Below, piece after piece: positions 16,478 through 64,000 of a DNA stretch of 64,000 nt. The notes below the pieces were generated by a model. It had not been told where the DNA came from. It did not search any database and saw nothing but the letters and a program-made list of their open reading frames with translations. Each line of letters starts with the position of its first letter. Position 1 is the first letter of the stretch. Source of the stretch: Branchiostoma floridae (lineage: Eukaryota; Chordata; Leptocardii; Amphioxiformes; Branchiostomatidae); NCBI RefSeq assembly GCF_000003815.2, contig NC_049989.1, positions 20,074,168 to 20,138,167 of the forward strand. Reading direction: 5' to 3'. The translations under genes and the position numbers were made by a program.

Positions 16478-19038
16478 ATGCCTTCCTTCGTTCTGAAGAC
16501 AAACCTGGCTCGTAGCGCCATCCCAAAGGACTTTGTGACGGAGACGTCCAAGCTTATCGCTGATATTTTAGGAAAACCTGAAGGGGTGAGTGCATGTAAA
16601 AGGGGGAGGGGCAATTTGTTACATGCATGTGCACGTTGTGTGCATGCACGTTGCATGTGCATCTTGGATGACGATGCGCTTGTCATGAACCGAAACGCAT
16701 AAGAGGCAAGTAGAAACGCAAAACTACCGAAGTCACGGGTAAATTTCTCATCACTCGGTATCCAGTGATGAAGTCGCGTCGTCTCTGGCTTACCAGTGGG
16801 GTAAATTTATCGTCACTAGTTTTCCAGTGATGAGGAAACTTCAGCTGGTAAACCAGTGACGACAAATATTCAGTTTACTGAAGGAAAAGGAATCATCGTT
16901 TCAGTTGAGGGGATTTGAAAGTTAGCACTTAAAGTTATACTAGCGTCACCTCTGCAAGTCCCCACACTCCCGGACCAAATCTAACAGTAACACGCCGCTA
17001 TGGTGACATGTGAATTAGGGTGTTTTTGTTGCATATCGAAGTCAGCATTGGAACGTTCTGGTGCAAATAGAACGTGGTCACTGGAAGCCCAGTGCCGAAA
17101 TAATTTCATCACTCGGTGTCCAGTGCCGAAGAGTCACCCATCACTGGAAAACCCAGTGAGGAACCGGTGACCTCGGTGGTTCCGCACTCGGTTCCCAGTG
17201 ACGAATGACGTTCATCACTGGGCCCCGAGTGACGAGCGGAGTTCATCACTGGGTCCTGAGTGACGAGCGGAGTTCATCACTGGAAACCGAGTGACGAGTC
17301 AAGGTTCATCACTAGAATTCCAGTGCCGAGAGAGCTTCATCACTGGAACAAAGCAATTCATCACTGGTAAACCAGTGACGAACTTTCTTCGTCACTGGGC
17401 ATCCAGTGACGACGCCATTTTGAATATACGTTCGTCACTGGACGCCCAGTGAGGAACCCGTGACTTTCGTAGCCTTGCAGTAGAAACAGTCCTTTGGTGC
17501 CCGCCAACCCAACACCATAACCGTTAGGCCAAAAGGTCCGGACCGGTTAGAATGGTCACGTCAGTTGGTGATGCATGGTGTGATGAAAGTGACATTTAGT
17601 AAACCTACGAATGTGAAAGTGTGATATGTTGAGCGCCGTGCAGCCTGATCGACTTGAAGAGCATCCAGAAGCTGTTTTTTTTACCATGAACTGTCACATG
17701 TATAAAAATTAAGATGGTCTTTGAAGGTTAGGTTTTAATAATTTAAGTTTGAAATGTCCCCCCTCCCCAGTACGTGTGTGTGTGTGCGTGGAAGCAGACC
17801 TGCTGATGACATACGAAGGAACAAATGCGCAGTGCTGTATCATCCACCAGATGAGCATTGGGAACCCCTTTTCTTTTACCATGAACAAAAAGCGTATAAG
17901 ATCCTCTTCTGTCTTCAGCTTAAGTCTTGATTTGAAGTTTGCCATGTTTCCTCTCCCCAGTACGTGTGTGCATAGAAGCAGACCTGATGACATACGGAGG
18001 AACGGACGCACTGTGCTGTATCATCGACATCGGGAAGCTGTTATTTTTATTCTTACCTTGAACCGTCACATGTAATCCTTTTCAGCTTAAGTTTTTATCT
18101 AAAGTTTGAAATGTTACACCCCTCCCCAGTACGTCTGTGTGTGCGTGGAAGCGGAACTCCTGATGTCGTACGGAGGGACGGATGCACCGTGCTGTATCGT
18201 TAACTTGTTGAGCATCGGGAAACTGGGGCTGGAGGAGAACAAGAGCCACACGGCGGCGATCTGCGAACACGTCAAGAAACACCTCAACATACCTGGCGAC
18301 AGGTGAGGCACTGCACTGATGTACGTTTTGTATCTAGCCTAAAATTCTGTACTGAAACACTTTGGGGTGCATATCATAAAGTACCGGTATAATCATACTG
18401 CTAGGTTGTTACTACTAGTAGCAAAACCTGATGGCAAACCTTATGTCTCTCTTCAGAACTTGATCTAGCTTGGAATTATATAGATTACTTCATGGTTCAT
18501 GCACAAGTAATACATACAACAACAAAGGTTTTGTTATTTTTCTGCCATTTAGTGCCTATAATATACCAGTGTCTAGTTGTACCATTGTAAGTGTCATTGG
18601 TTGTCATGTTAAGAGTTGTTATGGGCCAATGTGTAGAAAAAAGTCTGTCGCTGGAACCTCTTGAAGGTATGACATCATGCCATTGGGTTCATGAATAGGT
18701 TAGTTCACCATTTAAACTGTGCATGCACAAGGTCAAAGGTGAAGGTCCCTAAGTTTAAACAGTTCTTGTCTACTCAGACCATGCGTGATACCATGTTCAG
18801 ATGTGTTTTATTAAATATCAAATTTTATGTCTCAGGGGCCTTTAACTTTGACATATTATCTACAATGCATCACACCAGGCATGAGCATTTCAAACTGTGA
18901 ACTGGCTTAATTACTGGAACAAAAGTAAGGTCAAAGGTCACCATGATTGTTACCGTTCACCCCTGCAGGCTCTACGTCAACTTCCACGACATGGCAAGGC
19001 AGGATGTCGGCAGGGACGGCACGACCTTCGCACGCTAG
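16478..19038 (+). CDS. MIF-type tautomerase, copy 1
   Basis: Three exons: 16478-16585, 18130-18302, 18969-19038 (TAG), giving 116 aa. Exon phases (0, then 2) and the 173-nt exon 2 match vertebrate MIF. The mature protein would begin with Pro (MPSF...), the catalytic base of the tautomerase superfamily. LGKPEG keeps the Lys at the MIF Lys32 position. The end DVGRDGTTFAR matches MIF NVGWNNSTFA. The CXXC redox motif of MIF is not kept (here PCCIV). MIF family members are small secreted or cytosolic trimers with keto-enol tautomerase and, in vertebrates, cytokine activity; cytokine function here is unknown. Intron 1 contains a palindrome array and two decayed exon 2 copies. Confidence 0.9.
16748..17455. 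repeat. array of short palindromes (CATCACTGG...CCAGTGACGA)
   Basis: About 13 units of 20-24 bp, each a palindrome with CRTCACTSG and CSAGTGAYG arms and a variable centre of 2-5 bp (GAAAC, GTAAA, GGCAT, GGCCC). They are densest at 17067-17452, where centres are about 30-45 bp apart. Three outlying units lie at 16750-16865. Linkers vary, so the palindrome itself is the conserved part. It lies in MIF intron 1. Confidence 0.85.
17771..18129 (+). pseudogene. two decayed tandem copies of MIF exon 2 (3' splice-site repeat)
   Basis: CTCCCCAG followed by TACGTGTGTG occurs at 17771, 17961 and (true exon) 18130. Copy 17771 is open through YVCVCVEADLLMTYEG and diverges after MSIG. Copy 17961 has an in-frame stop after four codons. 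Intron sequence between copies also repeats (TGAACCGTCACATGTA, TTCAGCTTAAGT). Periods are 190 and 169 bp. Each copy keeps an acceptor and lacks the exon 2 donor. Confidence 0.8.
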
Positions 19039-19998: not shown

Positions 19999-20682
19999 TT
20001 TTCTGTCATACCCACCTGAGAAAACCCATGTTTCGATGCGAAATGCACCATTAGTTGAACAAATTTGGTGCCCTCGAACAAAATGTGTTGCAACAGCAAT
20101 GTTCAACGTCCGAATCAGGTATTCGAATTGCCAACCGTGCCGCAATCGGCCCGCTCGAAACAGTTCGATTTATTCGAATGGAGCCTGTGTGATACGCCTT
20201 TCGAACCGGTCTGATACAGAAGTTACGGCCCGGTCCGGAACACCCGTATCGAACGTTTTCGCGTCACAGGTATGACATAAATAAACATACTTGACTGACA
20301 CTGTTTCTCATGTGTATATTGTACGCCAAACGTGGGAACAATTTTAAAAACACAATTTCTAAGCTCAACACTTATGAGAAGCAGTATGGTAGTAAAGCAT
20401 GTTTTAACACTTAAACATACTTGACTCTATAGCCCTTGGTATTAACACTGGGCTGCTACAGGGGCTAGTTCACCCGGTGTGTTCATCTCCCATACCAAGT
20501 CTTTCTCAGAAGTGCTGTGCATTTAAGAAAGCAGCAGTGCATTATGTACTATATTTTCCATAAGTCTTTGGTAAAGACATACCTGCAGCTGCAGTATATA
20601 ACCATGTAGACTATGATCAATGAAGGATGTTTTATTTCGTATTCATCCAAGACAATAGCAGCAGCTACAGCTACATCGTACA

Positions 20683-21036
20683 TGTACATTTGTGTGTTCT
20701 AGTTAATCTACTCTTCCACCCCGGAGAGAACACTGCAGAGGAAATATGACTCTCCAACATCAAATACAACATTCAAGCAGTTCTTTTCCCTTCTGAAACA
20801 TGTACATTTTGTGTGCTCTAGTTTATCCACTCTTCAAACTCCGAGAAAACGTTGCAGAGGAAATATGACTCTCCAACATCAAATACAACATTCAAGCAGT
20901 TCTTTTCTCTTCTGAAACATGTACATTTTGTGTGCTCTAGTTTATCCACTCTTCCACCCCGAGAGAAAGTTGCAGAGGAAATATGACTCTCCAACATCAA
21001 ATACAACATTCAAGCAGTTCTTTTACCTTCTGAAAC
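20683..21036. repeat. 118-bp minisatellite, three copies
   Basis: Units start at 20683, 20801 and 20920, each with ATATGACTCTCCAACATC and ATTCAAGCAGTTCTTTT. Identity between units is high. It lies downstream of the distal aldolase terminal exon. Confidence 0.9.
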
Positions 21037-21965
21037 ATGTACAGTACACGCATCACCAAGAACGTGTTGCAGTTAAGTCAAGCATCGACAAAGCAGGCAG
21101 AGCTGTCTTGCATATATTCCAACACTGTGAAACTCCTTGTTGTCACGTTTTGAGCATATTTATAGACTTCTTACAGTTGTTCATCTTCAAACTATTAACA
21201 GCTTCTTCCAATCAACTTGATGTCATATACATTGTACATTCACAAGTCAAAATACTGCTTTTTGTGCCGTTTCTTGTTTCAACGTTCACATTTTAACATT
21301 ATTGATCAATTTTCCTTTTATCATTTCTCTCAGTATGCAGTTATTCTGAGGGCTTGCAAAATACTGTCAAACATTTTTTCAACAAATACTTCATTTTCTT
21401 TAGAAATATACCATTCTTCTGAACTGCATTCTTCAAGAATTAGTCCCTATTTTATAGACACCATCTCTACTTTAAATCTTAGACTATTATTTCAACAGGT
21501 TTACATGACATATTCTATACCATAAAGCGTGTGACAAGCAACAACAAATACATGCTTCTGAATCAGACATTGCTTTTATGCCGCGCATTTTACTTTTCAG
21601 TCAGGATTTTTCAACTGCCCAGTACAGCTTCTAAAATCTCAAAGTTACCATCACTTTCTTGTTGCAGAAATTGGATCTGATTGCGTGAAAAACGTAGAGA
21701 CGAATACTTCAGAAATAAGTATAACCCAGTTGTAAATTAACTCAATTCATAATCACAGTAAAGCAAACAACTAAGTTCAGTTAAGAATTCATTCTCTTTT
21801 AATAGTTACACTTTCAAACATACATTCCATAATTACGCAAGAGGAGGGAAAGGGGAATTTTAACAATACACCATTCTCTATTACCTTACCCAAACCTTAA
21901 TTTTATCGTAGCCAAAGTCTATGTGTAGATGTGAAGCAGTTTGCTATGATGTATATGTTCATGCT

Positions 21966-22058
21966 CTAGTACTTGTGGTCTGCAACAAACAAAGACTCGG
22001 ATGCAGCTGAGTCGCCTGCGCCAGCCGTGTACTTGGCTTCACAGGCCAACCCGTTCGC
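21966..22058 (-). CDS. alternative last coding exon of aldolase (distal, exon 7B)
   Basis: Acceptor TGCAG ends at 22059. The 93-nt frame reads ANGLACEAKYTAGAGDSAA, then SESLFVADHKY and stop TAG (21968-21966). Length and phase equal those of exon 7A at 23874-23966. It resembles the vertebrate C-terminus (ANSLAC...SESLFVSNHAY) more closely than 7A does and keeps the C-terminal Tyr needed for full aldolase activity. Joining exon 6 to this exon gives a second 360-aa isoform. Confidence 0.85.
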   Translation of the reverse strand, partial: ANGLACEAKYTAGAGDSAASESLFVADHKY

Positions 22059-22091
22059 CTGCAATAAAACAATAAAGAAATGATTTAGTCC

Positions 22092-22489
22092 TGATTATGG
22101 GTGAGTATACCGGTACAGAAAATTCAGGTCCGGACCTGAACCTGGACCTGATTCAGTATGTGAGAACTTGTGAATGGACGATACTCAAAACAATTGTCCA
22201 TTTTGCTACAAAGGAATCTGTATTGTGTTGTATTTGACTCCCAAGGCACTGGCGTTTTAAAAACCCTACAAGGCTAACTACCTCTGTACGATTTACTATA
22301 GAGTCTACTCTGCTTCTCTCTATTTTCCTCGACCGATAACCCCGAAAACGTGTGAATGCCTGACAATATAATCAGTTCATTTTCCAATCGGTCCAACATC
22401 TGGTCCACCGATTTTTTTCAGGTCCGTTTTTTCCGGTCCGGTCCAATGAGAAAAACCAGTTTTGTACCGGTACCCAGCTCTAGTCCTAA
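22092..22489. mobile_element. nonautonomous element, family D (GGTCC-rich), copy 1
   Basis: Ends are inverted: GTATACCGGTACA at the left and GTACCGGTACCCAGCTCTAG at the right. The interior is rich in CAGGTCCGG. Partial copies lie at 41740-42003 and, inverted, at 49055-49420. Confidence 0.6.
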
Positions 22490-23873
22490 TAGTAATAGAC
22501 CCCATTGAACCACACAAACTGCTTTCATCATAGGGGGGATTTTACGTCATCACGATCATACTTAAACAAAGAACGCGATCGAAAAAGTGTTTGCCATACC
22601 CGGAAGAAGCAGGTGTTCGATTACAATCTCTGCTCTGATTTACGACGATTTACGAAGTACTAATTAACTTAAGTCACTGAAACATCTCAATTTCAAATAT
22701 GATTTAACAAACAAGCAAATTTGTATATGTACAGGTCACATCACAGTCATCAACAACAAACTAGAAAATTGGTTTGACTGAAAACATGTATACACATCAT
22801 ACATATTCAACAATGAATATCTAAAATGAAAACATCTCCAAAACTGAAGTAAAGCAAGTTCCATAAGCACAAGCAGCAGCAAAGCAGAACCACGCAAAAA
22901 GCAACTGCAAACGTGAAGATACATGTATAAAACACTGCATCAAAGTGCAATAAAGCAGTAAGGCCTGGAAAAAAACGTTGCATTTTTTTGGCTAATTAGC
23001 CAACCTAAGCAGAAGCCTGCTGATGTCCCCAGTTGTTGAATGATGAAAACATTGCAAAATCATTTTCAACATGTTCTCTTTTCTCTTTCTTTAGAAAAAG
23101 GCTAGTATGAACAGACCTACCAAACTTAGGTCCCCTTTATGTTGGCAAATTGCACAGTACATGTATATGATCATTGTTTGGAGCCCATGCTGTCGATTTT
23201 TGTTAAATCTGTCATTTTATGCTGATAAAAATACATTTTAAAAGTTTTTTAGGGGAAGGACGGGGTGACATTTTTCCGTCCCAACAAGGAAATTTCTGTC
23301 CCAGGACGTAATGAGGGGTCTCAAAACACTGCATCAAAGTGCAATAAAGCAGTAAGGCCTGGAAAAAAACGTTGCATTTTTTTGGCTAATTAGCCGACCT
23401 GAAGAGCCTGCTGCTGTCCCAACAGTTTGTCTGACATCTGAATGATGAAAACATTGCAAAATCATTTTCCAACATGTCCTCTTTTCACTTGCTTTAGGTG
23501 GTTTTCTGTCCCAGGACGGAATGACAAGTCTTAGAGACAGCATTGGTTGAATATGATGATGAAAATTTCCGTGTTGTGCATTCTGGTTTAAATTGATTCA
23601 CCTTGTTGAGCTGTATTTGCTTGACACTGATGTTTCTCAGGACCATAATTAGAAAGAAAGCATCAATTTTCCTAGGCCTTACCCAAGAACAGAAAAATTT
23701 AAAAAGCTGCCGTGAAACAGAACTCTGCGCACGTGACAAACCAACAGCCTGCAACAAATAAACAAGGTTAAAGAAAAACAAACAAACTGAACCAAATGTT
23801 AGTACGGAAAAACAACAGAAACTTCGCGTGATTGGACGAGAAAGCGACAATCGGTACCAATCGTGGTGTGGGT
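22490..23873. repeat. region between aldolase terminal exons, with a direct repeat
   Basis: About 170 bp at 22930-23095 is repeated at 23333-23510, sharing ACTGCATCAAAGTGCAATAA and ATGATGAAAACATTGCAAAA. Short CTGTCCCAGGACG motifs recur nearby at 23298 and 23508. No other gene is supported here. Confidence 0.65.
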
Positions 23874-26800
23874 TTAGTAGGCGTGGTCTTTGATGAAGAG
23901 CGATTCTGCCGCTGCGTCTCCAGCAACACCACCGCCGTACTTTCCTGAGGCGGCTTCTCCGGCAGCCTGGTGTAGGGTAACCACACAGAGGGGAGGGGGG
24001 AGAGTTTGTCAAGATACTGTCAAGATACTGTCAAGATACTGTCAAGATACTTTAAAAAAAGTTTAATTCTTGATTTGCTAACCAGGGCTCAAAATACTTT
24101 TTTCTGCATACCTGCACTGGTACAGGTAACATTGAGAATTACCTGCACCAGACAAATTTTACCTGCACCACTCTGAATTTAGTACGGATCATTCTAAAAT
24201 TGTTAAGAAACCATTGCTATTTTTCCTTAAAATTTATACTTTATAGGTGGAAACAGTCGATGCAGCTAAAAACAATCCAAATACATCTACGTATAGGACT
24301 TTTATGTGTAAAACCCAGTACATGGACCAGTGCAGGTTAAGTGCAGGTGGACACCAGAAATACCTGCACAGCTCTAATTTTGCCTGCGCTGACCTGCATA
24401 TGCAGGTAGTATTTCGAGCCCTGCTAACTGTAACTTGTTTAAGAGATACTTTCGCAGGCATTATTTAACCACTGAACTTTGATCATTGCAATTGTTTTTG
24501 ATCACTCAAATTTGAGACAGCATGCTAGGAATTTTTGTTTTCACTGCTAAAGTTAAACAATGTGAACTACTCCCTTATTATTATAATTACCCTCAACTGC
24601 TAGAATTATCAACTGTAAATTATGGTATTATATAATTATTTGTGCAAGTTAACAGTTAAAGCAATGGATAGATTTGTAAATGTAAAAAGAAGCAGACTAT
24701 TTACAAACTATCCAAAAATGAAACTGTTACAAATTCATCCAGTTGCTTAAGAAACCGTTATCTTGCCTATCTAACTACCTAGACGTACTACATACTCAAG
24801 AAAAATTGTCATGTCCTGGTTTTGATTCCGCATGCTGTTTTGTAGCATGCCATAAAAATTTTTCGAGACAGGAGTTGGTGGAAGCATACTCACTGAAAGT
24901 GTACATATCAAGTTTAGTTTTGAAGTTCAGAGAAGAAGTTATGAAAGAATAAAGATTTAAAAAAAGAGTCTGACACAAAATAACTTGAGAAGCCACAATA
25001 AGCTACATACATGAGCTCAATAGTGTGGAAGGAAGAGAAGAAGCAACACTTGGAGCACGGCTCAGGACAGAAATAAAAAGTTTTCATGAAGAACGCTGTT
25101 CAATCCTAATCATTATTACCATGCAGCTATTGTAACATCATTATTAATTGGACAATCCACAGCCTTTTGCTCGGCCCTCGACTTCTCAACTTTGCTCTCC
25201 TGGGATGACAGTGTACACGGCATTTGATCCAACTGTTTTCTCTAACCAATGTAGAACCCACTGGACCTCTGGGAAGAGCAGGTTTGGCTGACATCCAGTC
25301 AAAATAAAGGTACCGTTATGTACTATGTATGAACGTATAAAACTATGGCAACAACCTAAGAACATGGCAATTTGCACCAGTGTGTATGACCCTTGACCTG
25401 TCGAAACATCCCAACTTCACCATTGACCCCTCACCTTTGCCCTTCCCAGGAAGGCGGCCTGTCGCAGGGCATGATGAATGTATAAAACGCATATTCCTAA
25501 GAATATGGCAATTCCCATCCAAGTGTATGACCCCTGACCTATCAAAGCATCCCAACTTCACCCTTGACCCCTCACCTTTGCCCTCCCCAGGAAGGCGGCC
25601 TGTCCGGCCTTGATCTGGTCGCCCTTGCCTGCCCAGGCCTTGAGCGCGGAGGCCTGCAGGGCGCGCCCGTACGAGAACGTCAGCTTCCACGGCTTCTTCC
25701 CCTGGAACTGGTTGATGGCGTTCAGGTTGACGGAGGCATCTTCCTCGGACTGTCCGCCAGACAGGAACACGATGCCTGAAAAAATATGTACGGATGGTTA
25801 AGGACTGTCCGTTGGACAGGAACACGATGCCTGAAAAAATATGAACAAATGGTTAGGGACTGTCCGCCAGACAGGAACACGATGCCTGAAAAAATATGTA
25901 CAAATGGTTAGGGACTGCCCGCCGGACAGGAACACGATGCCTGAAAACATGTGCAAATGGTTAGGGACTGTCTATCAGACTGGAACACGATGCCTGAAGA
26001 ATGTAGAGATTATCAAAAAACTGTCCACAGCAAGATGCCTAAAAGACTACAAAAGAGTGGATTTGGACAGCCGAACAGTTAAAATGACCAACATTTGTGT
26101 TGGAAATTACAATTCAACTTTGCTTTACAACTACCAAATAAAATCAACCTTTTCCCCGCTATCTGGACCCATCACCATACTTTGCCAAATAGTTACATTG
26201 AACATTTAAGTTTTTTCTGCACCAAATGGCCGGTGCATCAGGTGACACCCATCTCTGTATCTGTAGCCCTCAAGTTAATAGGGTGTGTGTTCAACTACCA
26301 TACACTTATGCAAAATGCTGAGACCTAAGCATGCAGCATGTACCATTTTTAAGCCTTTGGTTTGACTCAGCAGGGGAACTCTCAACCTATTGAACAAACA
26401 CTACCGACCCAGCTTGAGGTAACTTTGGGGTGAATACGACCTTTTTGGGTTCCTTACCCGTTTTCAACAAACCCAAGGGGGAAAATGGGGACCTGGGTTG
26501 GCATTGTTTCTATGCAGATGGAGGGGGGTGAAAACAAAATTCACACCCAGGTCATAGAAGAGTAAAACGGGGTGAAAAAGGGGTTGACAAATAGGTGTGA
26601 AACGATCTCCCGCTGCCCCGGGTACGTGTGTGTAGATCGGCTCCCAAGGTGCTGTCATTCTATAGGCCACTAGGAGTTTGATTTAATTTTGGCAAAAGGC
26701 AAACATCAGGCCGAGGCACATGTGGCTAAGCATGCTGCAGGCGTGACCTTACCAGGCACAGCAGCGGGGACGGTGCGTGACAGGGCAGTGACGGTTGCCT

Positions 26801-27095: not shown

Positions 27096-30000
27096 TGTGA
27101 GTACATTTTGTATGAGTGTGTGTGTATGAGTTCTCTCATACGAACTGCAGAGTTTCTGTGTGTCTGTATGTGTGTGTGTGTGTGCGTGCGTGTTTCTGTG
27201 TCTGTGTTTGTGCATGTGTTTGTGTGTGTGTGCATGTTTGTGTGTGTGTGTGCATGTTTGTGTGTGTGTGTGTGTGTCCGTGTGTGTGTGTATGTGTGTT
27301 TGTGTGCGTGTGTGCACATGTGTGTATGTGTGTGCACATGTGTGTACGTGCACATGTGTGTGTGCATGTGTGCGTGTGACTCCTTGCTGACCTTCTCAGT
27401 GACGTACTGGGACCGCTCCAGATCGTGATCTCCATCAGGCAGAATCTCCGGCTCTACAATGGGCACCAGCCCGTTCGCCTGGCAGATGGTAAATAAATAA
27501 AAAACAAACAAACAACAAACAAACAAACCTTCTCGGTGACGTACTGAGACCGCTCCAGATCGTGATCTCCATCAGGCAGGATCTCTGGCTCCACAATAGG
27601 TACCAGCCCGTTCGCCTGGCAGATCGTGGCGTAGCGAGCGAGCACGTTGGCGTTCTCCAGAATGGCGAGAGGCGAGGGCGTGGTGGGGCCGATCTTCAGG
27701 ACGCAGCGCCACTTGGCGAAGCGGCAGCCGTCCTTGTAGTACTGGGCGCAGCGCTCGGCAAGACCGTCCAGACCTGGAGTAGGCGGACAGAAAGAAATTT
27801 AAATTCCTGTTGTTCATCAGGTTTCTACAGTTACTGTTACAGTACTATTTTGAGGAGAGTAGCTGTCCTGACAGGGTATCATACTGTTTTCGAGTCCTCT
27901 TAGAAAAGGGTCAAGTTTTGCTCAGTTATTTTTCAGTCTCAAGAACATATGTGCCTGTATCTTTACACCAAATTACAACTCAACCCATAAGAAAAATAAA
28001 CTTGTTATGATACAAGTTGACATTACTTTACTGTAATAATTTAAAACAAAGATTGGTCTTTCTTGTCAGGGACAAAACAAAGACTTACCCTGTGTGGTTC
28101 CCTCTCCCACAGTGCCAGCCAGGGGGACAACTCCCTTGTCAACCTACAATAACAAAAAAATACATGTACAGCTCCCTGAGTCAATACCTCCCCCCCCCCC
28201 CCCCGGAAAATTTTGAAATTGTAACCCTCTGAAATGCTATTTCCTGCATTTTGAGGTGCATATTTTGTAGAATTCAGCCAAGATTTTTTTGTGTCTGTTA
28301 CAATATGTTTGCCCTGACTGAGGCTGGGAGGAAAAATTTGGGCGTCCGTAGTGCGTCTTGCTTAAAAGTATTGCGTCCGATTTCTTATGTTTGTTAGGAC
28401 AGTGCGTCTAAATGACGCGTTGATGCATGCCTAGCTAAAAGCCTGGGTCTAAGAGATGAAAACACTGTGGAATCGTTTTACAAGACGTCCTTCTCATTTC
28501 TGTTGCAACACCGAAATCGTGTGATACAGTAAATACAAGTCACACCAAAGACAAAATGTAAAAATATTGTAGACCTACATGTTGTAGTCTAGCACAGATA
28601 TTTGGCTTCTTCTTGCTTCAAAAAATTCTGATGAAACATTTGATGGTGTATACTGTGAAGTAGTATGCATGTTTTACTTTCTAAAATTAATATCTATCAG
28701 AAAATAACTCTCATTCCTGGAGGTTAGGACTCCTTTAACTTTCCTTGTCCTTACCTTGATGCCAGGAATGATGCCCTGGTCCTGGAAAATCTTAACGAAG
28801 GGCGTTCCATCATCAGCCTTCTGGTACAGGGTCTCGTGGAACAGGATCACACCCGAGATGTAATTTAAGGGTTTAAGATGTAACTTAAGACTTTAAGAGT
28901 CCTTTAACTTTCCTTGTCCTTACCTTGATGCCAGGGATGATGCCCTGGTCCTGTAGGATCTTAACGAAGGGTGTTCCATCGTCAGCCTTCTGGTACAGAG
29001 TCTCGTGGAACAGGATCGCAACAGAGATGTAATTAAAGACTTTAAGACTTCTTTAACTTTCCTTGTCCTTACCTTGATGCCAGGGATGATGCCCTGGTCC
29101 TGGAGAATCTTGACGAAGGGTGTTCCATCGTCAACCTTCTGGTACAGAGTCTCGTGGAACAGGATCACGCCCGAGATGTAATTTAAGACTTTAAGATGTA
29201 ACTTAAGAGTTTAAGACTCCTTTAACTTTCCTTGGCCTGGCTACCTTGATGCCAGGGATGATGCCCTGGTCCTGTAGGATCTTAACAAATGGCGTTCCAT
29301 CGTCAGCCTTCTGGTACAGAGTCTCGTGGAACAGGATCACACCCGAGATGTAATTTAAGAGTTTAAGGTGTAACTTAAGAGTTTAAGACTCCTTTAACTT
29401 TCCTTGTCCTTACCTTGATGCCAGGGATGATACCCTGGTCCTGGAGAATCTTAACGAAGGGTGTTCCATCGTCAGCCTTCTGGTACAGAGTCTCGTGGAA
29501 CAGGATCACGCCCGAGATGTAGTTCTGCATGTCAGCGCCTGACGTGAAGAGCAGCTGGCGGTACGTGCGGCGGTTATCCTCCGAGTTCTCCACGTTGATG
29601 TTAGCCAGGCGCTTGCCCATGGTTCCTGGGGAAAGAGATTCAAATGTTTGCTTGTTTACTTTTGCTCATCTATCCCTTAGTCTAACTATTTGAACACTGA
29701 GGCACTACTGAAGACCTGGCACCAGTTTTCTCCACCCCTCTCCGTTTTCTGTAGTTCTCCTTAGAGTTCTCTCATAGATGTTATCCAGGCGCTTGCCCAT
29801 GGTTCCTGGGGAGGTAGGTTTTAAATGTGTCCTCATCCAACTTGATTAGATGAACTGTTAATAACTGTAAGTACAGTGGGGGAAACGTGTATTTTAACGT
29901 GTACACGATCGGAGACAACCGTGTGCACGCCGCGCACACGATCGTATACACGCCGTGCACACGTTTAGGGCGGAGTCCAGATCAGCGGGGAGTCAGCTCA

Positions 30001-33000: not shown

Positions 33001-33374
33001 TGTATGTCAGATAATGGACTAATGAAGTATCCAAGTATCCAACATTGGTTTGCTTAAAGGATACTAGAATTTTGTTTTCACACCCAGTAAAAAGGACATC
33101 AAAGACTTTCAAAGTGTGCTGCCTAACCAGGCCTAGGGTGAACCCACTGGACAGAGCCGCATGGAAGCGCGGTGTGAAGACTACCCGACTGCTGCCTACC
33201 CCTGTGTCAGGGAACCCTGCAGTTAAAGACTGAGTATACTCAAATAATGGACATGACTGTTACAGACATACCTGTGCTCTCGTCAGCAGCCAGAATGCCC
33301 TTGCCCGGAGACACGATGGCGTTGGCGTTGGCTGCCAGCTCCTTCTTCAGTTCCTCGGTGAAGGTGAAGGACAT
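23874..33374 (-). CDS. class I fructose-bisphosphate aldolase
   Basis: Coding exons in order: 33374-33272, 29625-29414, 28143-28089, 27773-27529, 26927-26753, 25775-25576, 23966-23874 (7A), giving 360 aa. The enzyme splits fructose 1,6-bisphosphate into two triose phosphates in glycolysis and runs the reverse in gluconeogenesis, in the cytosol. [12 protein letters not shown] is near residue 30. [12 protein letters not shown] carries the Schiff-base lysine (Lys229 in rabbit numbering). [19 protein letters not shown] and [14 protein letters not shown] follow. 7A ends [11 protein letters not shown] with the C-terminal Tyr. Exon lengths 212, 55, 175 and 200 equal vertebrate ALDOA exons from memory; the 245-nt exon equals vertebrate 161 plus 84 joined. 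A 5' UTR acceptor lies at 33410. Five exon borders are flanked by tandem partial copies. Confidence 0.97.
24008..24052. repeat. 11-bp minisatellite, four copies
   Basis: GTCAAGATACT is repeated four times just upstream of aldolase exon 7A on the reverse strand, within the intron. Confidence 0.9.
24083..24423. mobile_element. hAT-like MITE
   Basis: 341 bp with ends CAGGGCTCAAAATAC and GTATTTCGAGCCCTG. Internal ACCTGCA motifs recur in both orientations. CAGGGCTCGAAAT ends are typical of hAT elements (family knowledge). GCTAAC occurs at both flanks but offset by a base, so the duplication is not exact. Confidence 0.7.
25435..25540 (-). pseudogene. partial copy of aldolase exon 6 donor border
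   Basis: On the reverse strand AGGCCGCCTTCCTGGGAAGG then GCAAAG|GTGAGG repeats the end of exon 6 (QAAFLGRAK) with an intact donor. About 60 bp of adjoining intron (TCAAGGGTGAAGTTGGGATG type) is repeated too. The period is about 141 bp. It is one extra copy, 3' of the true donor at 25575. Confidence 0.8.
25806..26000 (-). repeat. 55-bp tandem copies of aldolase exon 6 acceptor border
   Basis: Four extra copies of TTTTTCAG|GCATCGTGTTCCTGTC lie in the intron before exon 6. Decoy exon starts are at 25830, 25885, 25940 and 25993; the true start is 25775. Spacings are 55, 55, 55 and 53 bp. Each carries the codons for GIVFLSGGQ or a close variant after an AG. The period is not a multiple of three, so use of a decoy would usually shift frame. 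Confidence 0.88.
26001..26752. other. aldolase intron, no feature recognised
   Basis: Unique-looking intron sequence between exons 5 and 6. No repeat or gene could be supported. Confidence 0.6.
27005..27376. repeat. TG-rich microsatellite with a foldback fragment
   Basis: 27053-27376 is long interrupted (TG)n with TGCATG and CACATG variants. 27010-27050 is a fragment of the repeat at 2219-2391. Cys/Val-rich or His/Thr-rich frames over it are artefacts. Confidence 0.9.
27392..27478 (-). CDS. duplicate 87-nt exon-like segment of aldolase (cryptic or alternative exon)
   Basis: The 87 bases encode [16 protein letters not shown], then [13 protein letters not shown], identical in protein to the 3' end of exon 4 (27529-27615). 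Over the 98 aligned bases there are seven differences, all at third positions and all synonymous. It has a T-rich tract and TGCCAG acceptor just upstream and a GT donor (GTCAGC) at its end. Both ends are phase 0, so inclusion would add 29 residues in frame. The acceptor lies at the point where, from memory, vertebrate ALDOA has an intron before an 84-nt exon. It could be an unused decoy. Confidence 0.6.
28755..29352 (-). pseudogene. four tandem partial copies of aldolase exon 2 with intact donors
   Basis: 108-bp segments at 29245-29352, 29073-29180, 28924-29031 and 28755-28862 repeat the last half of exon 2, from [18 protein letters not shown] to IIPGIK. Each is followed by GTAAGG (GTAGCC in the 29245 copy). 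Only a few residues vary (Lys-Val-Asp in one, Ser-Val-Ala in one, Phe for Leu in one). None has an AG acceptor at its start. The period is about 150-172 bp and includes TTAACTTTCCTTG-type intron sequence. Confidence 0.9.
29874..32925. mobile_element. 3.05-kb nonautonomous DNA transposon in aldolase intron 1
   Basis: Starts CAGTGGGGGAAACGTGTA and ends TACACGTTTCCCCCACTG once the last bases are aligned, with TA on both sides (29872-29873 and 32926-32927). Subterminal motifs ACACGATCGTATACACG and CGTGCACACG recur near both ends in inverted order. No transposase-like frame is seen; the longest open frames are about 80 codons. It holds TATA-like TATAAAAG (30302) and TATATAAG (30514) boxes. CAGT ends with TA flanks suggest a Tc1/mariner-like group, but this is inference. 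Confidence 0.8.
33045..33233 (+). mobile_element. possible LINE ORF2 C-terminal remnant
   Basis: A short frame ends [17 protein letters not shown], which resembles the D-R-x-x-W-R tail of many LINE ORF2 proteins. There is no other support. Weak call. Confidence 0.25.
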
Positions 33375-33492
33375 GGTGGATATTTGTGTTGGTCACTCGA
33401 TGGGCACACCTGGAATTTGGTGAAAGAAGACGATGTCACACAAATGCTCGTCATATAAATACATTCAAACACGTACTAGCATTACTATAGGC

Positions 33493-33541
33493 AAGGTGAA
33501 GGACATGGTTGATATCTGTGTCGGCTACTCGATCTGAACAC
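33493..33541 (-). pseudogene. copy of the aldolase first coding exon border and start codon
   Basis: 132 bp upstream of the true border (acceptor at 33410-33412, ATG 33374), the sequence AAATTCCAG|GTGTTC and then ATGTCCTTCACCTT (ATG at 33506) repeats the acceptor, the untranslated leader and the first codons before diverging. The repeated unit includes adjoining intron sequence. Confidence 0.75.
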
Positions 33542-34185
33542 CTGGAATTTGGCAAAGAAAACGGTGTCACAGAAATGATATTGTCATATAAATTATAATT
33601 ATAAATTATTCAAAACTGTACTAGTGACCCTCTTTACGCATAAAGACCACCTGGCCATTGATATACAGTCAAACCCGTACCAGCGATCACCTCTACATGA
33701 GGACCACCTGGCCACCGTGACCACATTTTGGTGGTCCCTTATACTAGCTATAGCTAATTTTGCCCATTGGCAAAGGTATTTAGAATCTTGTCTGCGTGTA
33801 CACACTAGTAGGAGTGGACATTGTCTAATGTAACTGGTTTCTTCAAATCACTTACCGGTAGCCACCAAATACTAGTAAGTGGTCAGTTTAGGCAACTTTA
33901 TTCATTTACATTTTGTACCAAAACGACATGACTTCCTCTCTGCCACACTGACTTTAGGCACCTATCTTATATTTGTCACCACTGTAGCTAGCAGGGACAT
34001 AAATTCTGATGTGTGCATATGCACATGCACAGGACACTTGCTGACTCCCCCACATACATGTACAGTGATACTATCGGAATGCCAAACGCCCTGTACCAGA
34101 CAGACAAATGCATGCACATGTATATTTATTACCTTTGGGACAGTTGAAACACAGCCAACACTGCCCCCCTCCCACCACTAATGTG

Positions 34186-45616: not shown

Positions 45617-46495
45617 AGGTGAGTGACGGCTAAACGTATGTAAACGCCTCTGTAGCATTCTTCTAGGGGGTGTTTTACCCTGTTACTTTCCGTATCGCTT
45701 ACATATCATGTGGCACATTTAAACCTTCCGTTGCCAAAATCAACTACGAGCAAATTGTATGTCGCATGCCTTCCATGGACTTAAAGCCATTGACCGACCG
45801 GTTACGATTAATTTGGCCACGCCAAATCGTAAGGCTTCTGTGGCCGTGCGACAGGTGCATGTTGGCCCGCGGTGTAATATGATTTTGGATCTGCCAGAAG
45901 ATAGACGTGCATGTCGTGTAATCAATAATTGTAAAAAAGTTCCTGCATGGTTTAGCGTGCCTCTCTGCTGTAAATATCATATCGAATGCATCTCAAATTA
46001 TAAGTCTAATATTATTTATGGGTTCTAGTGCTGTCGTTAAACCTGTCACTGAAATTTCACACTCTCAAAATGGCTTTCAACTCAGCTGATCGTCAAGCCG
46101 CCAAACGAACTGCGGCAGGTGATTTCTTCAGTCTGACCTTTGAACCGCACGCTCCATGCGGAATATTTACAAAGCGCAGTGTTGGTCACCCCAAATAAAC
46201 AACGATTGAGTTCATTTGAAGTATATGTCTCACAAGGATGATATGAAAATATCAATTTTACATGATTATTGTCAGTCATATTTTGTTCTCCATAAAACCT
46301 GTATGCATTGCATAAATGACCTATGACTTGATCATGTTGTCTATGTACGTAGATGTACTTAGACTTTATGATCTTTATGGATAAAGTTGTACTTTATGGA
46401 TATTTGCATGAGATGTATTTTATATACGGAATAGCTCTGAAAAAAAGAATTAATGAAAAAAAAATCATTATTATTTTCTTGATGTTTGCAATACA

Positions 46496-46555
46496 GCTTA
46501 AAAAAAACATGCCGCTGGCTCACATCAAGACCAACCAGTGTCCCCGGACCAGATA
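46496..46555 (+). pseudogene. broken copy of MIF-like exon 1
   Basis: ACAG, an A-run, then ATGCCGCTGGCTCACATC at 46509 repeats the acceptor, leader and first codons of copy 3 exon 1 (46644). Two extra bases (AACCAGTG for AACCTG) break the frame after nine codons and homology ends at 46553. A shorter echo (GTTAGCTCACATCAAAACC) lies at 47338-47358. Confidence 0.8.
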
Positions 46556-46643
46556 TATATTTGAAAAAGTTCTGAAAAAATATTACAGAAAAAAAACATT
46601 TTTATTTATTTATTCTTTTTTTTGTGATACAGTTTAAAAAAAC

Positions 46644-47168
46644 ATGCCGCTGGCTCACATCAAAACCAACCTGTCCCCGGACCAGTTCAGCGATGACTTC
46701 ATGAAGGAGACGTCTCAGATGATCGCAGAGCTCCTCGAGAAGGAGGAATGGGTAAGGATCCGAATGTTTTGGCATTTTCTATCTTTTAGCTTGATGTGGC
46801 ATTTAGGACGATCTCTGTGATTCACAGATTATGCATGCACAACATAGAGTGGAATTCGTTAGCCTCCTTCGCAGACTTTAAGCGGCACTGGCTATTTTAT
46901 GGAGGGGGCGAACTCCCTTCCACGGCAAACTCCCTTCTTCGGCAAACTCCCTTCTTCGGCAAACTCCCTTCTTCGGCAAACTCCCTTCTTCGGCAAACTC
47001 CCTTCTTCGGCAAACTCCCTTCTTCGGCAAACTCCCTTTCCCGGTATGAGAGAACCTAGCCGACATTGAAAATCGCGAACACAGCTTCCACCTCACCGCC
47101 CATGAAATAAAATAAAAGCCAGCCCGCTCGAAGTCTGCGAAAGAGGCTAACATTTCGTTGCTACTCAA

Positions 47169-55162: not shown

Positions 55163-55171
55163 GAGTTTCAT

Positions 55172-56470: not shown

Positions 56471-56471
56471 C

Positions 56472-58461: not shown

Positions 58462-59711
58462 TCTCTCCCTGTCTGCCGAAGTGTTGAGATAAGGAGGAGT
58501 TGGAGTTGTCGGAAATGTAGTGGCGCCAGAAGCACCGAGACGGCGGCTGCTTGAAACTTTCCGATAACATGAGCTAACTCCCGCGCAGTGAGTCGACCTT
58601 TCTCGAGCACAGCATTGGCTAATCGACTCAGCTCGATCACCTTATCATTCGGTAGAAAGAGAGACATGGTAACAGAATCTAAACCTGAACCAAGGAAAAC
58701 AATACGCTGGGTTGGCTCTAAAATAGACTTACCCAGATTGGTCACGAAACCCACGTGGGCAATGAATTCTGTTGCTGTTTTGGCGTCTTGCCTACAGCGT
58801 TCATAATCACTGGCTATAATCAGCATGTCATCAAGGTAACAAATTAACCGAATACCTCGTCGTCTCAAATGCGAAGTAATGACCTTCAAAATCTTCGAGA
58901 AAATTCTCGGAGCCGTGGAAATTCCAAACGCCATACAAACGAAGGAATAAAAACGATTCTTCCACGCAAACGACAAGAACCTCTGATGGGTAGAATGAAT
59001 CGCAACAGAAAAATAAGCATCAGTAAGATCAATCTTACAGAAAAAATCTCCTGGACGCACCAAATCTTGAACTAAGGATAAATGCTCCATCTTGAACTTG
59101 GGTACAAACAAACATCTATTCAGAGGTCTGAGATTGATGACGGGCCGAAGGCCCCCTGATTTCTTGGGTACAGTGAACAACCGAGAAATAAAAAGATCTG
59201 AACTGAAAGGGACCTCTTTCACTGCACCTTTCTGCAACAAGGTTTCAACTTCTAAATCCAGGGCCAAATCCTCCTCTGGAGACATAGCTCGAGTCCAGGG
59301 AATACTAGTCTGTACTGGAGGCGTCCGCTTAAATGGCAACCTGTACCCCTTAATGATGTCAAGAATTACTGAATCGCTAGTTAAAGTACGCCAAACCGGC
59401 AAAAAATGCTTCAAACGGCCCCCATGAGGAAGGGCTCGAACTAAGGGGCGAGGTACAGGTTGTGATTCAGACGGACACCGGCCTAAATCTTGCATACACA
59501 AAGAAACACAACTACTTGCTAGATTTCTTCCCGAAGCTCCCGTCTCCGCCCTGACCGGAGGAACGGGAGTACTGCGCACCCCAGTAAAACTTGTTGTTAC
59601 CGCCGGACTGGCGGGGAGGGGGGCGGGATTTACGTGAATTGGAGCCGCGGCCCCGGCCGCCGTAACGCGAGGCGCCCGACTGGCCCCTCCCCCATCGGGG
59701 CCTCTGCTCAT
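57390..59711 (-). CDS. DIRS reverse transcriptase / RNase H frame
   Basis: A 773-codon frame. RT motif A is FCKIDLTDAY (about residue 226) and the active site is YLDD (about 294). RNase H residues follow in IESDASQLGWGAF (about 457), EMMAATFAV and IKSDNSTVV. The C-terminal block AVDLFASRLN then SWEPDPEA and YAFPPF is the conserved region that follows RNase H in DIRS elements (sometimes labelled methyltransferase-like). It overlaps gag at its 5' end and the recombinase at its 3' end. Confidence 0.93.
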   Translation of the reverse strand: MSRGPDGGGASRAPRVTAAGAAAPIHVNPAPLPASPAVTTSFTGVRSTPVPPVRAETGASGRNLASSCVSLCMQDLGRCPSESQPVPRPLVRALPHGGRLKHFLPVWRTLTSDSVILDIIKGYRLPFKRTPPVQTSIPWTRAMSPEEDLALDLEVETLLQKGAVKEVPFSSDLFISRLFTVPKKSGGLRPVINLRPLNRCLFVPKFKMEHLSLVQDLVRPGDFFCKIDLTDAYFSVAIHSTHQRFLSFAWKNRFYSFVCMAFGISTAPRIFSKILKVITSHLRRRGIRLICYLDDMLIIASDYERCRQDAKTATEFIAHVGFVTNLGKSILEPTQRIVFLGSGLDSVTMSLFLPNDKVIELSRLANAVLEKGRLTARELAHVIGKFQAAAVSVLLAPLHFRQLQLLLISTLRQTGRDWDAPVHLPLDARQDLVWWRDSLPQNNDRPIHCPVGDIVIESDASQLGWGAFSDGISTGGRWSVRERTRHINQLEMMAATFAVQSFCKDKVNSAVRIKSDNSTVVAYINRRGGTKSTALADLALNLWSFCVERGLLLSAVHVAGLDNVRADFKSRNFNRLTEWSVSPSVYEIILQICPALRNPRAVDLFASRLNRKLRLYVSWEPDPEAVGTDAFTLDWNQWEALYAFPPFILVGRVLTKIRQDKVQRVHLLAPIWETAAWYPMLLHMLVQEPVRLPTSRFLLTQPVDGTPHPLGESLRLAVWTVSGLDTESLKFRMELPECSWHPGDREPVGYTRPPGGDGLAGVVEKVLIPFRRH

Positions 59712-61011
59712 ATTTTGGCTTCAAAGAGTCAACTAAAGCCCTTTTGCCCGCCACTAACTCCTTAGCTTTGGACGCTAAATCCGAACGAACCAAGTGTGAC
59801 GGCTCATCGGGAATCATCCCAAACAAATCCTTGGCTGTATCTACGGTAGAAACCTCGGCTAAAGACAGACGTCTCATTTCAGCAAGGTAACGATTAGCGG
59901 AACCCAGCAGCCAAATAGCAGTCGCTGCACAATCTTTCATTACAGTCAAGTCAGACGACGAAAGATTACCATCACAATCACCAAGCATCTGCCATAGATT
60001 CAGAATCGGAGCTGGTACATACAATAACTTTTCCTGCAAAGTGAAAAGCGGCTTGTCCGCATTGATACAATGCTTACCTCTGATCGGGTCAACCGCCGGC
60101 AGTAATTTCATCGTAGCGCTATCGAGCTTCGGCACCGTGAGATTTTTAGGTGCATTTGTTGGGAGAAGGAATTTACCCTGCCAATGTTTAATATCGGCAA
60201 ATTCACGCTTCTCTAACCCGAAGTACTGCTCGGTGTAACTAACAACCGACGGGCGGGCCGTCCACACTTTATCCGGGTCGGGCGGCTCACGCTGCAGCGG
60301 CACGAAAGACTCAACGCTGACCGAGGAGAAGTCCGACTCCTCGCCGCTGTCGCCCGTACGAGCCCGTTTCGAACGAACCGACTCCGCCTCTGAGGGTGGC
60401 ACCGAAGGCCTCTTTGAGCCTACGGAAGCCGCAATGGAGCCAAGAATTTCTTTAACTCCCCGAAATTCTTCAGTCATAAGGCCGAAGGCCGCACGGAGAG
60501 AATTTTGATCTTCTTGTAGGGTGTTGACCCCTAGCATAGCACGGAACTCCGCCATATTTTCTGGAAAATTTTCCTCATGCTCATGAACATGCCCGGACGA
60601 AAGCTCCCGCTCGGAATCCCTAAGAGAAAACTCGCTGCCATGGAGCGTAGAACTCCCCTGTGCTGCCGGGAGAGCAGCCATACGGCGCTTAAACTCCGCC
60701 AGGCTTGTAACAGGGGGGACGGCAGCTGGGTCACGAACATGTGCGGGCATGTTGGATTTTGCACCACGTGGTGGCGCCGGCGGGGCAGTACTTGCCCTGA
60801 ATTCACGCGGCGTTATCTTCTTAACACGCTCGCGTTTCTTGTCCTCTTGCTGAACTTGCCGAGAACGCGACTTATGTTTGTCACTTTTGTGTGACCGCTG
60901 AGACTTACGTTTATCACGCGAACGCGAACTACGGTCACTCATTGTGACAGAGCTATTACAGATAGGACTATCCGATATGAAGCAAAAATTACAACTGAAG
61001 AAATCAAGCAA
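59512..61011 (-). CDS. DIRS gag-like frame
   Basis: A 499-codon frame at the 5' end of the element. The N-terminus is Arg/Ser/Lys-rich (SDRSSRSRDKRKSQRSHK) and the C-terminus has an RG-rich tract (RWGRGQSGASRYGGRGRG). This is like DIRS and Ngaro ORF1 proteins that bind RNA. The start may be the Met at 61011 or the MSDRSS Met about 23 codons later. No zinc knuckle is seen. Confidence 0.8.
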   Translation of the reverse strand: MLDFFSCNFCFISDSPICNSSVTMSDRSSRSRDKRKSQRSHKSDKHKSRSRQVQQEDKKRERVKKITPREFRASTAPPAPPRGAKSNMPAHVRDPAAVPPVTSLAEFKRRMAALPAAQGSSTLHGSEFSLRDSERELSSGHVHEHEENFPENMAEFRAMLGVNTLQEDQNSLRAAFGLMTEEFRGVKEILGSIAASVGSKRPSVPPSEAESVRSKRARTGDSGEESDFSSVSVESFVPLQREPPDPDKVWTARPSVVSYTEQYFGLEKREFADIKHWQGKFLLPTNAPKNLTVPKLDSATMKLLPAVDPIRGKHCINADKPLFTLQEKLLYVPAPILNLWQMLGDCDGNLSSSDLTVMKDCAATAIWLLGSANRYLAEMRRLSLAEVSTVDTAKDLFGMIPDEPSHLVRSDLASKAKELVAGKRALVDSLKPKYEQRPRWGRGQSGASRYGGRGRGSNSRKSRPPPRQSGGNNKFYWGAQYSRSSGQGGDGSFGKKSSK

Positions 61012-61149
61012 GCCGAGAGCGCATGCGTCACCGAAAGGGGAGGAGCTTCTTCTTTCGAGTGACTACGAATGAGCTTAAGATGGGCATGGAAGCGAGGATG
61101 CCATGCTGAGTTATCACCATGTGACAGCGTCGAGGGACAATTGTATAAG

Positions 61150-61760: not shown

Positions 61761-61769
61761 AATGCGATC

Positions 61770-62021: not shown

Positions 62022-62141
62022 TGATGATAGTCGAGCTTGCTGAAGCTCGATGTTTCTGACTTAGGGAGATGAGATGCTGCTTCAGTGACTAGAAGTGATC
62101 AATGGCCTTGCACTGAGCAAACCCGCTAAAACAATGTCCAT

Positions 62142-64000
62142 TCAGGCGTCTGACTCTGCCAGATACACGAGCAGCCTCCTGTTGCCGGTGAAGCCCAGGC
62201 GGCCATGTTGGATGTACATGTTGTTCAGCACCAACACGTCACGTCTCTGCATCTGGAAACCCACTGCAGCCTGAAACAAACGAACATTTCTTAAGTATGT
62301 TTACTGCAGTTTTCTTTTGGACCATCAGTAATACCTATCTCCTGATTATTAGACATCTTCCTCCGAGCTTCTGACTACTTCTGGTCGCCATAGCTCGTAA
62401 CGTCTCTGCATCTGAAACCCAACTGCCACCTGTATAATGTACAAGGTATGCCATGTGTCAATTGTGCTTACTACAAGGCCGGAGTGTTGTATGGTTATTG
62501 ACCGGTACACTAATTCTTGTTTATACATTAAACAAACTTGAAGCTACAGATGTCACAGTTCTCTAGTGTGTCAAAACAGGAAGGTAACACAAAATGCTGC
62601 TTGTAAACTGGAATGACATTGGATAATCATTCACATGAATATAACTTTATAAATGATTTTATATTGAAGCCAGAATGATATTTAAAGTACAAACTGTTTA
62701 AATTCATAGTGAAATACTTTCAAGGCTAGATGTCGCTGCTTACAACGCAGTCACACATACAACAGCGTTCCCAAATACAAAATATTGACATACATGTATT
62801 TACATAATTGTATTTTATAAAATTCGATGAAATGATGTAGTCAATTAGCCTGGTACAGTGTATGATAAACGTCGGGGCGAACCATCCGAATGGTACCCAG
62901 GCTAATAGTCAATGCCAATTTCTCCATTAGAACAGTGACCCCACCTGCCACGTCACATCCCGTATGTGCTGTAGTACTTCCGGTTCGATCTCCGAGCCGT
63001 CGCCATATTGGGTGTTAGCGTCTGTCATGTCCGGGGGGACGGGTTTGGTGCTGTCGTAGTCGGGATGGGCCGTGAGGAAGTCCGCGTTGTTCACGTGGGC
63101 CTGGTTAAACCATAGCCACTCTCCTACAGCAGACAGAGACGATTTTCATTGTTTGTTTTTTTGGGGGTGGAAATTTTTAGATAATGTCGCCTGTGCATGC
63201 GAAATTTCCGTCAACTGGCAAAGACGAGTTGGTCGGTCTTACATCGAGATACATGCTGTGGACTTTTAAAAAAAATCACTGAAGGCAGAAAAAGAGTGGG
63301 CGTCATCCGGTTGACTCGCCCGAAATATTGATACTAATGATACTAATGATGATGATACTGATGATGATGATGTTGATGATGATGATGATACTGATGATGA
63401 TGATGATGGCATCCCTCCCCCCAAATCACCAACAGAGGACTCCCTCTTTTTAATCTTTTTTTTAACTACTTGGTGAGAGATAGTCATGTAGATGGCTAGG
63501 CTATGCTCGAGAAGGGGTTAAAACGTAACATGTTTTCTGTCGACTACCTACACCCCACACTGAACTTTCGAATCCAATGACGTTGGTTTCGGTGTAGGTA
63601 GTCGACAGGAAACATTTGTCAGGGAGTGAAATCCTGTAATAAATTAACAGTCCGGGGAAAGGGGCTGAAGCTGTAGAAGGACTTTGAGATTTGTATGTGG
63701 ACAGTGCAATGATGTGAGCTAGAGGTGAACCTTAGTTCAATCCGGGACTCTGACGTTGCAAGTTGTCAAACGAAAACTATCGTAAGGACACAATCGTACC
63801 ATAGATACCAAAGTGTGAAAAATAGATCATATACAAAACACACACGATTAGTACTGCATGTATAAGATACTGTTGAGTTTACAATATTTGCCAATGCCTC
63901 ACCTTTATATAGAGTCATGGCGGGTAGATTGTACCACCAGCTGACCGACCCGTCCTGCCCCCATTGCCATGTCATACCCCGCGCACTCAGGTACCGCTCC
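62142..64000 (-). CDS. TauD/clavaminate-synthase-like oxygenase, copy B (3' part)
   Basis: Three exons in the window: 64000+-63903 (continues past the edge), 63123-62945 and 62270-62142 (TGA). Lengths 179 and 129 and all phases equal those of copy A exons 5 and 6. The distal iron/2-oxoglutarate segment YIQHGRLGFTGNRR is intact. The clearest protein change is in exon 5, VPPDMTDANTQYGDG against VPPHLNPFNSQYGDG in copy A. No stop or frameshift is seen, so it is probably a functional tandem paralogue. Confidence 0.88.
62393..62432 (-). pseudogene. copy of TauD-like last-exon acceptor border
   Basis: Reverse strand TATACAG|GTGGCAGTTGGGT then TTCAGATGCAGAGACGTTAC repeats the true acceptor and first 12 codons of the last exon (start 62270), 159 bp further up the intron. 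The copy ends after about 38 bases. Confidence 0.75.
62460..62740 (+). repeat. module repeat RX, copy 4
   Basis: AGGCCGGAGTGTTGTATGGT, GCTACAGATGTCACAG, AAAACAGGAAGGTAACAC and AATGATTTTATATTGAAGCC follow the RX order. It lies within the last intron of TauD-like copy B, unlike the other copies. Confidence 0.7.
63340..63406. repeat. GAT microsatellite
   Basis: Interrupted (GAT)n in an intron of TauD-like copy B. Ser-rich or Asp-rich frames over it are artefacts. Confidence 0.9.
63528..63615. repeat. foldback with 25-bp arms
   Basis: ATGTTTTCTGTCGACTACCT then ACACC at the left is inverted by GGTGTAGGTAGTCGACAGGA then AACAT at the right, with a 36-bp loop. Confidence 0.85.

Follow-up and report, generated by a model that had tools for sequence, protein, structure and literature searches.

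Intronic copies of duplicated exon ends in lancelet genes look as if selection had screened their protein code

In a 64-kb stretch of the 513-Mb Branchiostoma floridae genome (C11:20074168-20138167, here called the window and numbered from its first base), ends of exons are copied in tandem, together with their splice sites and adjoining intron, in four genes, among them an aldolase. Judged by their sequence, these junctions are amphioxus ‘mirages’, junction-spanning minisatellites of a kind known from Adh3, globins, troponin C and PGBD5 (PMC3087553, PMC3902484). New here are a deficit of nonsynonymous changes and the retention of splice dinucleotides in the intronic copies, which look as if selection had screened their protein code. 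Such constraint on supposedly useless copies was unexpected. The duplications themselves are pervasive in the genome, and outside the window they are no more frequent at curated exon borders than in the introns of the same genes.

Duplicated splice junctions in the window

The window had been chosen as striking by a first, sequence-only reading. Local duplications were detected by self-BLAST, which was preferred because Tandem Repeats Finder (TRF) listed only the stronger arrays, and a rerun used a search space that was uniform. In four genes, 16 extra tandem copies were present at nine splice junctions, of which six belong to aldolase and one each to MIF-A, MIF-C and TauD-B. Self-comparison, reading of the sequence and the rerun agreed on every listed junction, with expect values (E) from 5e-5, reached in the rerun by the weakest case, the TauD-B last-exon acceptor, to 0. 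The junctions are:

33361..33593, minus strand, aldolase exon 1 acceptor with start codon, one copy, shift 132 bp
29573..29812, minus strand, aldolase exon 2 acceptor, one upstream copy, shift 181 bp
28720..29524, minus strand, aldolase exon 2 donor array, functional exon end and four downstream copies, unit ~169 bp, of which ~111-115 exonic
27390..27627, minus strand, aldolase exon 4 donor, one copy, shift 137 bp, T-rich spacer of ~36 bp
25747..26001, minus strand, aldolase exon 6 acceptor array, four copies of a 55-bp unit (26 intronic, 29 exonic)
25329..25604, minus strand, aldolase exon 6 donor, one copy, shift 145 bp
17662..18221, plus strand, MIF-A exon 2 acceptor, two old, diverged copies (~71-73% identical), unit ~192 bp
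46421..46685, plus strand, MIF-C exon 1 acceptor with start codon, one copy, shift 135 bp
62237..62432, minus strand, TauD-like B last-exon acceptor, one short copy (37 bp, 84%), shift 159 bp

The sequence-only reading had named at least seven such junctions, and all of those listed were present with the copy numbers it gave. The aldolase exon 2 acceptor was missing from its list, while its MIF-like exon 1 case proved real and corresponds to the MIF-C acceptor. Unit lengths put at 55 to about 196 bp were measured as shifts of 55-195 bp. That no single repeat had spread through the window was also borne out: units and genes differ, the events are independent, and a genome DNA search with a stretch of the aldolase exon 2 array gave three matches, every one inside that array. 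A spreading repeat was thus ruled out as the source. A search of a phage collection gave no match.

By sequence reading, an intact junction in functional order (first donor, last acceptor) remains at the duplicated junctions. The aldolase gene lies on the minus strand, and a joined sequence of its exons 2 and 4-7, lacking exons 1 and 3, matches solved aldolases over their full length (E 2e-136). With 6 of its 14 listed borders in a local duplication, it is a local duplication hotspot. The identities of MIF-A, MIF-B, TauD-A, Gal3ST-A and Gal3ST-C are supported by Pfam; TauD-B, of which a piece had no Pfam match, MIF-C and Gal3ST-B were named by likeness to neighbouring genes.

Coding constraint and splice-site retention in the copies

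Changes were counted in 28 copies at 16 of the 17 junctions studied inside and outside the window; the P450 junction had no usable copy, and that of aldolase exon 1 showed no change. The count was limited to copies that blastn detected at E 1e-3, which left, for instance, one of five TTC21 copies and one of two Piwi donor copies. Under the null model, copies drift freely and the functional exon takes only silent changes, with CpG and transition bias allowed. The model is a conservative one: the expected nonsynonymous share would go up both with further copies and with a functional exon under imperfect constraint.

The copies held 134 changes, 87 synonymous and 47 nonsynonymous, against 74-77 nonsynonymous changes expected (P 1e-7 to 2e-6). 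By codon position, they fell 26/19/89 on the first, second and third base. The nonsynonymous share was low in each subset, with 25 of 67 in the window, 15 of 41 in the random regions and ALDH loci together and 7 of 26 in the globin mirages (each P <0.01). The globin arrays had been fetched as a test after the effect was seen elsewhere, and ~15 nonsynonymous changes were expected in them. With the CpG bias set 5- or 10-fold, the overall P was still 5e-5 or 4e-4, and that of the window alone 0.03 or 0.11; these values, like the remainder of 72 changes given below, rest on a count of 48 nonsynonymous changes in 134.

Five arrays show the effect, with nonsynonymous shares of 0.00-0.29. In the aldolase exon 2 donor array, all four copies retain the GT and the exonic part is free of indels. 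Its four copies and functional unit vary at 16 of 111 columns, with 13 synonymous and 4 nonsynonymous changes, and the encoded proteins are nearly identical. The exon 4 donor copy has 8 synonymous and 0 nonsynonymous changes across 33 codons. A Piwi acceptor array in a random region (L030, 3536-4146) has three extra copies with 16 synonymous and 3 nonsynonymous changes. Neutral-looking arrays are the older MIF-A array, ALDH L013, the Piwi donor and the aldolase exon 2 acceptor, whose copy has 2 synonymous and 4 nonsynonymous changes, as well as the short aldolase exon 6 acceptor array.

Several points weigh against selection as the cause. Most of the deficit is due to the aldolase exon 2 donor, the exon 4 donor, the Piwi acceptor, BflGb6 and BflGb9; with four of these five removed (aldolase exon 4 kept), 34 of 72 changes were nonsynonymous, hardly off the null (P 0.045-0.31). 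The window alone is not significant at the 10-fold CpG bias, and the aldolase exon 4 array consists of two units only. Some synonymous changes also lie at CpG, and older arrays look neutral. These observations would suit a deficit that is a by-product of third-position mutation bias, of chance in a few arrays or of silent changes in the functional exon caught by copies of different birth times. Such an origin is nevertheless unlikely: the null already grants the functional exon its synonymous changes as well as CpG and transition bias, and the published globin arrays show the deficit too. In B. floridae, CpG transitions are raised only ~2-fold (PMC12862219), and this low bias argues against a mutational cause.

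The splice dinucleotide was retained in 32 of 33 copies, where a loss of 7.3 was expected (P 0.002). Copies were counted if 8 or more bases aligned on both sides; the aldolase exon 1 and TauD-B junctions were left out. In the aldolase exon 6 acceptor array, the AG is kept in 4 of 4 copies. Retention of this kind could mean that the copies are in use, as alternative or poison exons or as decoy splice sites, and keep code and splice sites for that reason. The aldolase exon 4 copy can indeed be read as an in-frame exon of 87 nt, and two of the three Piwi copies have donor-like ends. However, the aldolase exon 2 copies have no acceptor at their start, and their frame, by reading, ends at a stop in the intronic part that follows the functional exon. 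The predicted Piwi copy exons measure 101 and 104 nt and are not divisible by 3, a decoy role would not prefer synonymous to nonsynonymous change, and reverse transcription PCR suggests regular splicing of the globin mirages (PMC3087553). Use of the copies is improbable.

Background of duplication and exon borders

The background was taken from 20 random 10-kb regions (194 kb in total). These contained 43 duplicated loci, with none in six regions, and 26 of the 43 overlapped no predicted exon. Local tandem duplications cover 8.2% of the bases of this sample and 6.9% of those of the window, so that the duplication density of the window is ordinary.

Exon borders were curated in 8 of the 20 random regions and at 13 ALDH loci, all outside the window. 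The ALDH family search had yielded 14 exon loci; searches for the AMP-binding and ADH_N families yielded places only and were unused. Left out of the test were L021-L025, L029 and L031-L035 (Pfam not run), L036 (no Pfam match), nine single predicted exons scoring at least 15 in L018, L019, L020, L026, L027 and L028, two exon-like Piwi copies in L030, and, owing to overlaps, L017 as well as shared ALDH exons. L014 entered the test without the copy and without one exon on the minus strand, and its exon end was placed by hand. Four of ten exon peptides of L037 were compared with Pfam; the exons of L027 gave weak Pfam matches only, and those of L018 only partly a SOUL match.

Outside the window, 5 of 176 curated borders (2.8%) lay in a duplication that passed the border by a margin of 6 bp, compared with 3.6% of the intron bases of the same genes. 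The pooled ratio was 0.79 (bootstrap interval 0.24-1.93), for exons curated after the duplications were already visible; without the margin, 7 of 176 borders were duplicated. In the random regions, the count was 3 of 92 borders against 3.1% of intron bases (5 of 92 without margin), and at the ALDH loci 2 of 84 against 4.6% (also 2 of 84 without margin). In the window, it was 7 of 58 (12%) against 9.0%, and 9 of 58 without margin. In the sample taken, 3-4% of curated splice borders fall within local tandem duplications, a share no higher than that of the surrounding introns. This measurable background is relevant to models in which introns are gained from duplicated splice sites.

The sequence-only reading had suggested a mechanism tied to exon borders; splicing-coupled breaks, R-loops at junctions or reverse splicing would be of this kind. 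In its favour, 9 of 58 curated window borders are duplicated and aldolase alone holds six of them. In a crude test that placed the 43 sample loci at random against ab initio exons, an excess at borders also appeared whichever of five exon-score thresholds was applied. It was 1.3-fold for thresholds 12 and 15 (p 0.13 and 0.23) and 1.8-2.5-fold for 18, 22 and 26 (p 0.04, 0.02 and 0.03). A similar placement in the window, likewise with uncurated exons, gave 6 loci where 2.8 were expected (threshold 18, p 0.05). Of the eight hits at threshold 18 in the random sample, three (L023, L029 and L036) sit on low-complexity or repeat frames, as judged by eye; L036, the only one of them compared with Pfam, had no match.

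Against such a mechanism stand the borders outside the window, which are duplicated less than the introns of the same genes, the small difference between borders and introns even in the window, and the many sample loci that overlap no predicted exon. The anatomy of the units also speaks against it. Breakpoints had been said to cluster on splice sites, but the junction sits inside the unit, whose exonic part makes up 22-72% of its length at 16 of the 17 junctions. Breakpoints at splice sites were accordingly rejected. The position of the junction within the unit did not differ from uniform (Kolmogorov-Smirnov p = 0.14, unit lengths taken by hand), as expected for units falling randomly around a junction. 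In two cases, the aldolase exon 4 donor and TauD-B, the blastn match stops within 2 bp of the junction.

Strong border enrichment is unlikely, and strong targeting was rejected; there may be a mild, two-fold enrichment. A process tied to exon borders is, taken together, quite unlikely. The comparison of tandem repeats with exon borders against a null, which the sequence-only reading had proposed for the whole genome, went against such a process for the curated borders of this sample and gave a mild excess with ab initio exons. The option it had offered besides, that selection tolerates copies which leave one good site, fits. Such events also extend beyond the window, with 7 duplicated curated borders outside it and two published globin mirages present.

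Comparison with known mirages

The window events match the junction-spanning minisatellites of an amphioxus Adh locus that the sequence-only reading had named, the mirages cited in PMC3087553. Two of nine globin loci fetched carry published mirages: L042 is BflGb9 with 157-bp donor-side units, and L046 is BflGb6 with acceptor-side units of 150-158 bp. Their presence at the published unit sizes is indirect evidence that the host is a cephalochordate and points to B. floridae. For the Adh3 mirages (Canestro et al. 2002, as cited in PMC3087553), length and somatic instability are described and units of 10-72 bp given, whereas shifts in the new genes are 55-195 bp; the citing passages make no mention of synonymous or nonsynonymous change in the copies. 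The globin mirages (Ebner et al. 2010, PMC3087553) have an anatomy like those of the window, with units of 150-160 and 157 bp on the acceptor and donor side. Their authors propose that introns were gained and describe concerted evolution inside clusters, and the word ‘synonymous’ does not occur in the main text. In PGBD5, repeats of 60 and 108 bp overlap exons and splice sites as in the window, and a troponin C repeat is cited as a mirage (PMC3902484). Both are single genes for which these passages give no genome background rate, unlike the sample used here. Among the papers listed by the literature searches, none showed in its title or the opening of its abstract a genome-wide border test or an analysis of coding constraint in mirage copies.

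The published cases also bear on the quality of the assembly. Alleles or reads mis-stacked in tandem could give a similar picture in a diploid of high heterozygosity; a run of N follows the BflGb9 array, one BflGb6 haplotype was mis-assembled in an older draft (PMC3087553), and the PGBD5 copy number differs between two older assembly versions. Yet the unit lengths and junction sides of BflGb9 and BflGb6 equal those in print, the PGBD5 repeats are backed by re-sequencing (PMC3902484), and units vary in length and age within a coherent exon-intron order. An artefact is therefore highly improbable.

A possible two-step origin

The following account, untargeted duplication followed by exchange of units between homologues with selection in a functional slot, is given a little better than an even chance. 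In the first step, local tandem duplications, mostly of tens to ~200 bp, would arise in the genome at a high rate wherever selection permits. Those that span a junction may persist, tolerated through the order of splicing, if a normal transcript is still made from the copy adjoining the exon body, which is the first donor or the last acceptor; no aiming at exon borders would be needed. In the second step, the units of active arrays would act as one small family common to the population. Between homologous chromosomes, unequal crossing-over and gene conversion over short tracts would carry them to and from the functional slot. Any unit whose change damages protein or splicing would be purged on reaching this slot, silent changes would accumulate, and unused intronic copies would retain code and splice sites.

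A nonfunctional copy cannot keep its code alone, and for the aldolase exon 2 and Piwi arrays the anatomy makes use as exons unlikely, which suggests that units are tested in the functional slot. Most B. floridae conversion tracts are <200 bp (PMC12500494), and conversion at heterozygous sites is orders of magnitude commoner than mutation (PMC12862219).

Exchange was simulated forward with one seed and one parameter set, with a synonymous diversity of 0.07 put in. When conversion acted between chromosomes, the nonsynonymous share was 0.66 and 0.56 at 20x and 200x the mutation rate and dropped to 0.19 and 0.15 at 1000x and 3000x. At the two higher rates, the synonymous divergence of units (pS) was 0.14-0.18, about twice the diversity put in. 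For functional exon ends in arrays, the model predicts a synonymous diversity raised to 0.14-0.19. Conversion within a chromosome only gave shares of 0.57-0.73, never below 0.57 at four rates. The simulation reproduces the deficit only with frequent exchange between homologues, which points to exchange and testing in the slot. It replaced an earlier small-population simulation with shares of 0.57-0.76 between and 0.65-0.76 within chromosomes, for which background selection was thought responsible. The synonymous divergence among aldolase exon 2 units, up to 0.27, counts against the two-step account, as it exceeds both the simulated values and the divergence between alleles (0.070-0.075 in the Chinese lancelet, PMC4284660).

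In multigene families under concerted evolution, unequal exchange between chromosomes pools units across the population. The pooling proposed here would be alike, with the difference that each array has one functional slot and its other units are intronic. More tentatively, and with rather less than an even chance, lancelet exon ends might be seen as pools of interchangeable units that are rotated by homologue exchange, the ‘dead’ copies being a reservoir of working ends. If the constraint holds genome-wide, exchange between homologues would act on exon ends, selection would reach sequence outside the coding path of the transcript, and such exchange would be testable with existing pedigree data.

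Further features of the window and sample

Two arrays copy the coding end of a Gal3ST gene onto its 3' side. The sequence-only reading had counted the Gal3ST terminal exons as further junction cases, which they are not, since no exon-intron junction is involved:

4599..5058, minus strand, Gal3ST-B coding end copied to the 3' side, shift 195 bp
11297..11725, minus strand, Gal3ST-C coding end copied to the 3' side, shift 187 bp

The Gal3ST-C arrangement was probably inherited with the paralogue. Four duplicated window loci have no known exon border (17078-17348, 20680-21043, 22929-23497 and 46907-47038). At 20680-21043, a 119-bp unit is present in three copies, for which TRF gives a likeness of 92%; it has an acceptor-like end and no coding evidence. 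Inside MIF-A intron 1, a dispersed 31/63-bp repeat (AGTGACGAGC...TTCATCACTGG) occupies 16737-17348.

In the exon of TauD-like A that matches the duplicated one of TauD-like B (49500-49627), no local duplication was found. Between the two TauD-like genes, open frames of 688, 776 and 516 codons (56575-61062, minus strand) resemble fragments of retroelements; two pieces of them compared with Pfam had no match. Outside the window, two ALDH paralogues lie ~32 kb apart, of which L014 (1037-1201) has an exon-end duplication and L015 (849-1013) only an intronic duplication nearby.

In aldolase, the exon 4 copy with its T-rich spacer (27390-27528) shows acceptor-like and donor-like ends and an in-frame length of 87 nt; judging from this arrangement, it would look like a nascent intron arising by tandem duplication. 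The gene also has two different putative last coding exons on the minus strand (21969-22094 and 23877-24008), one of which ends in ...ESLFVADHKY, and this suggests alternative terminal exons.

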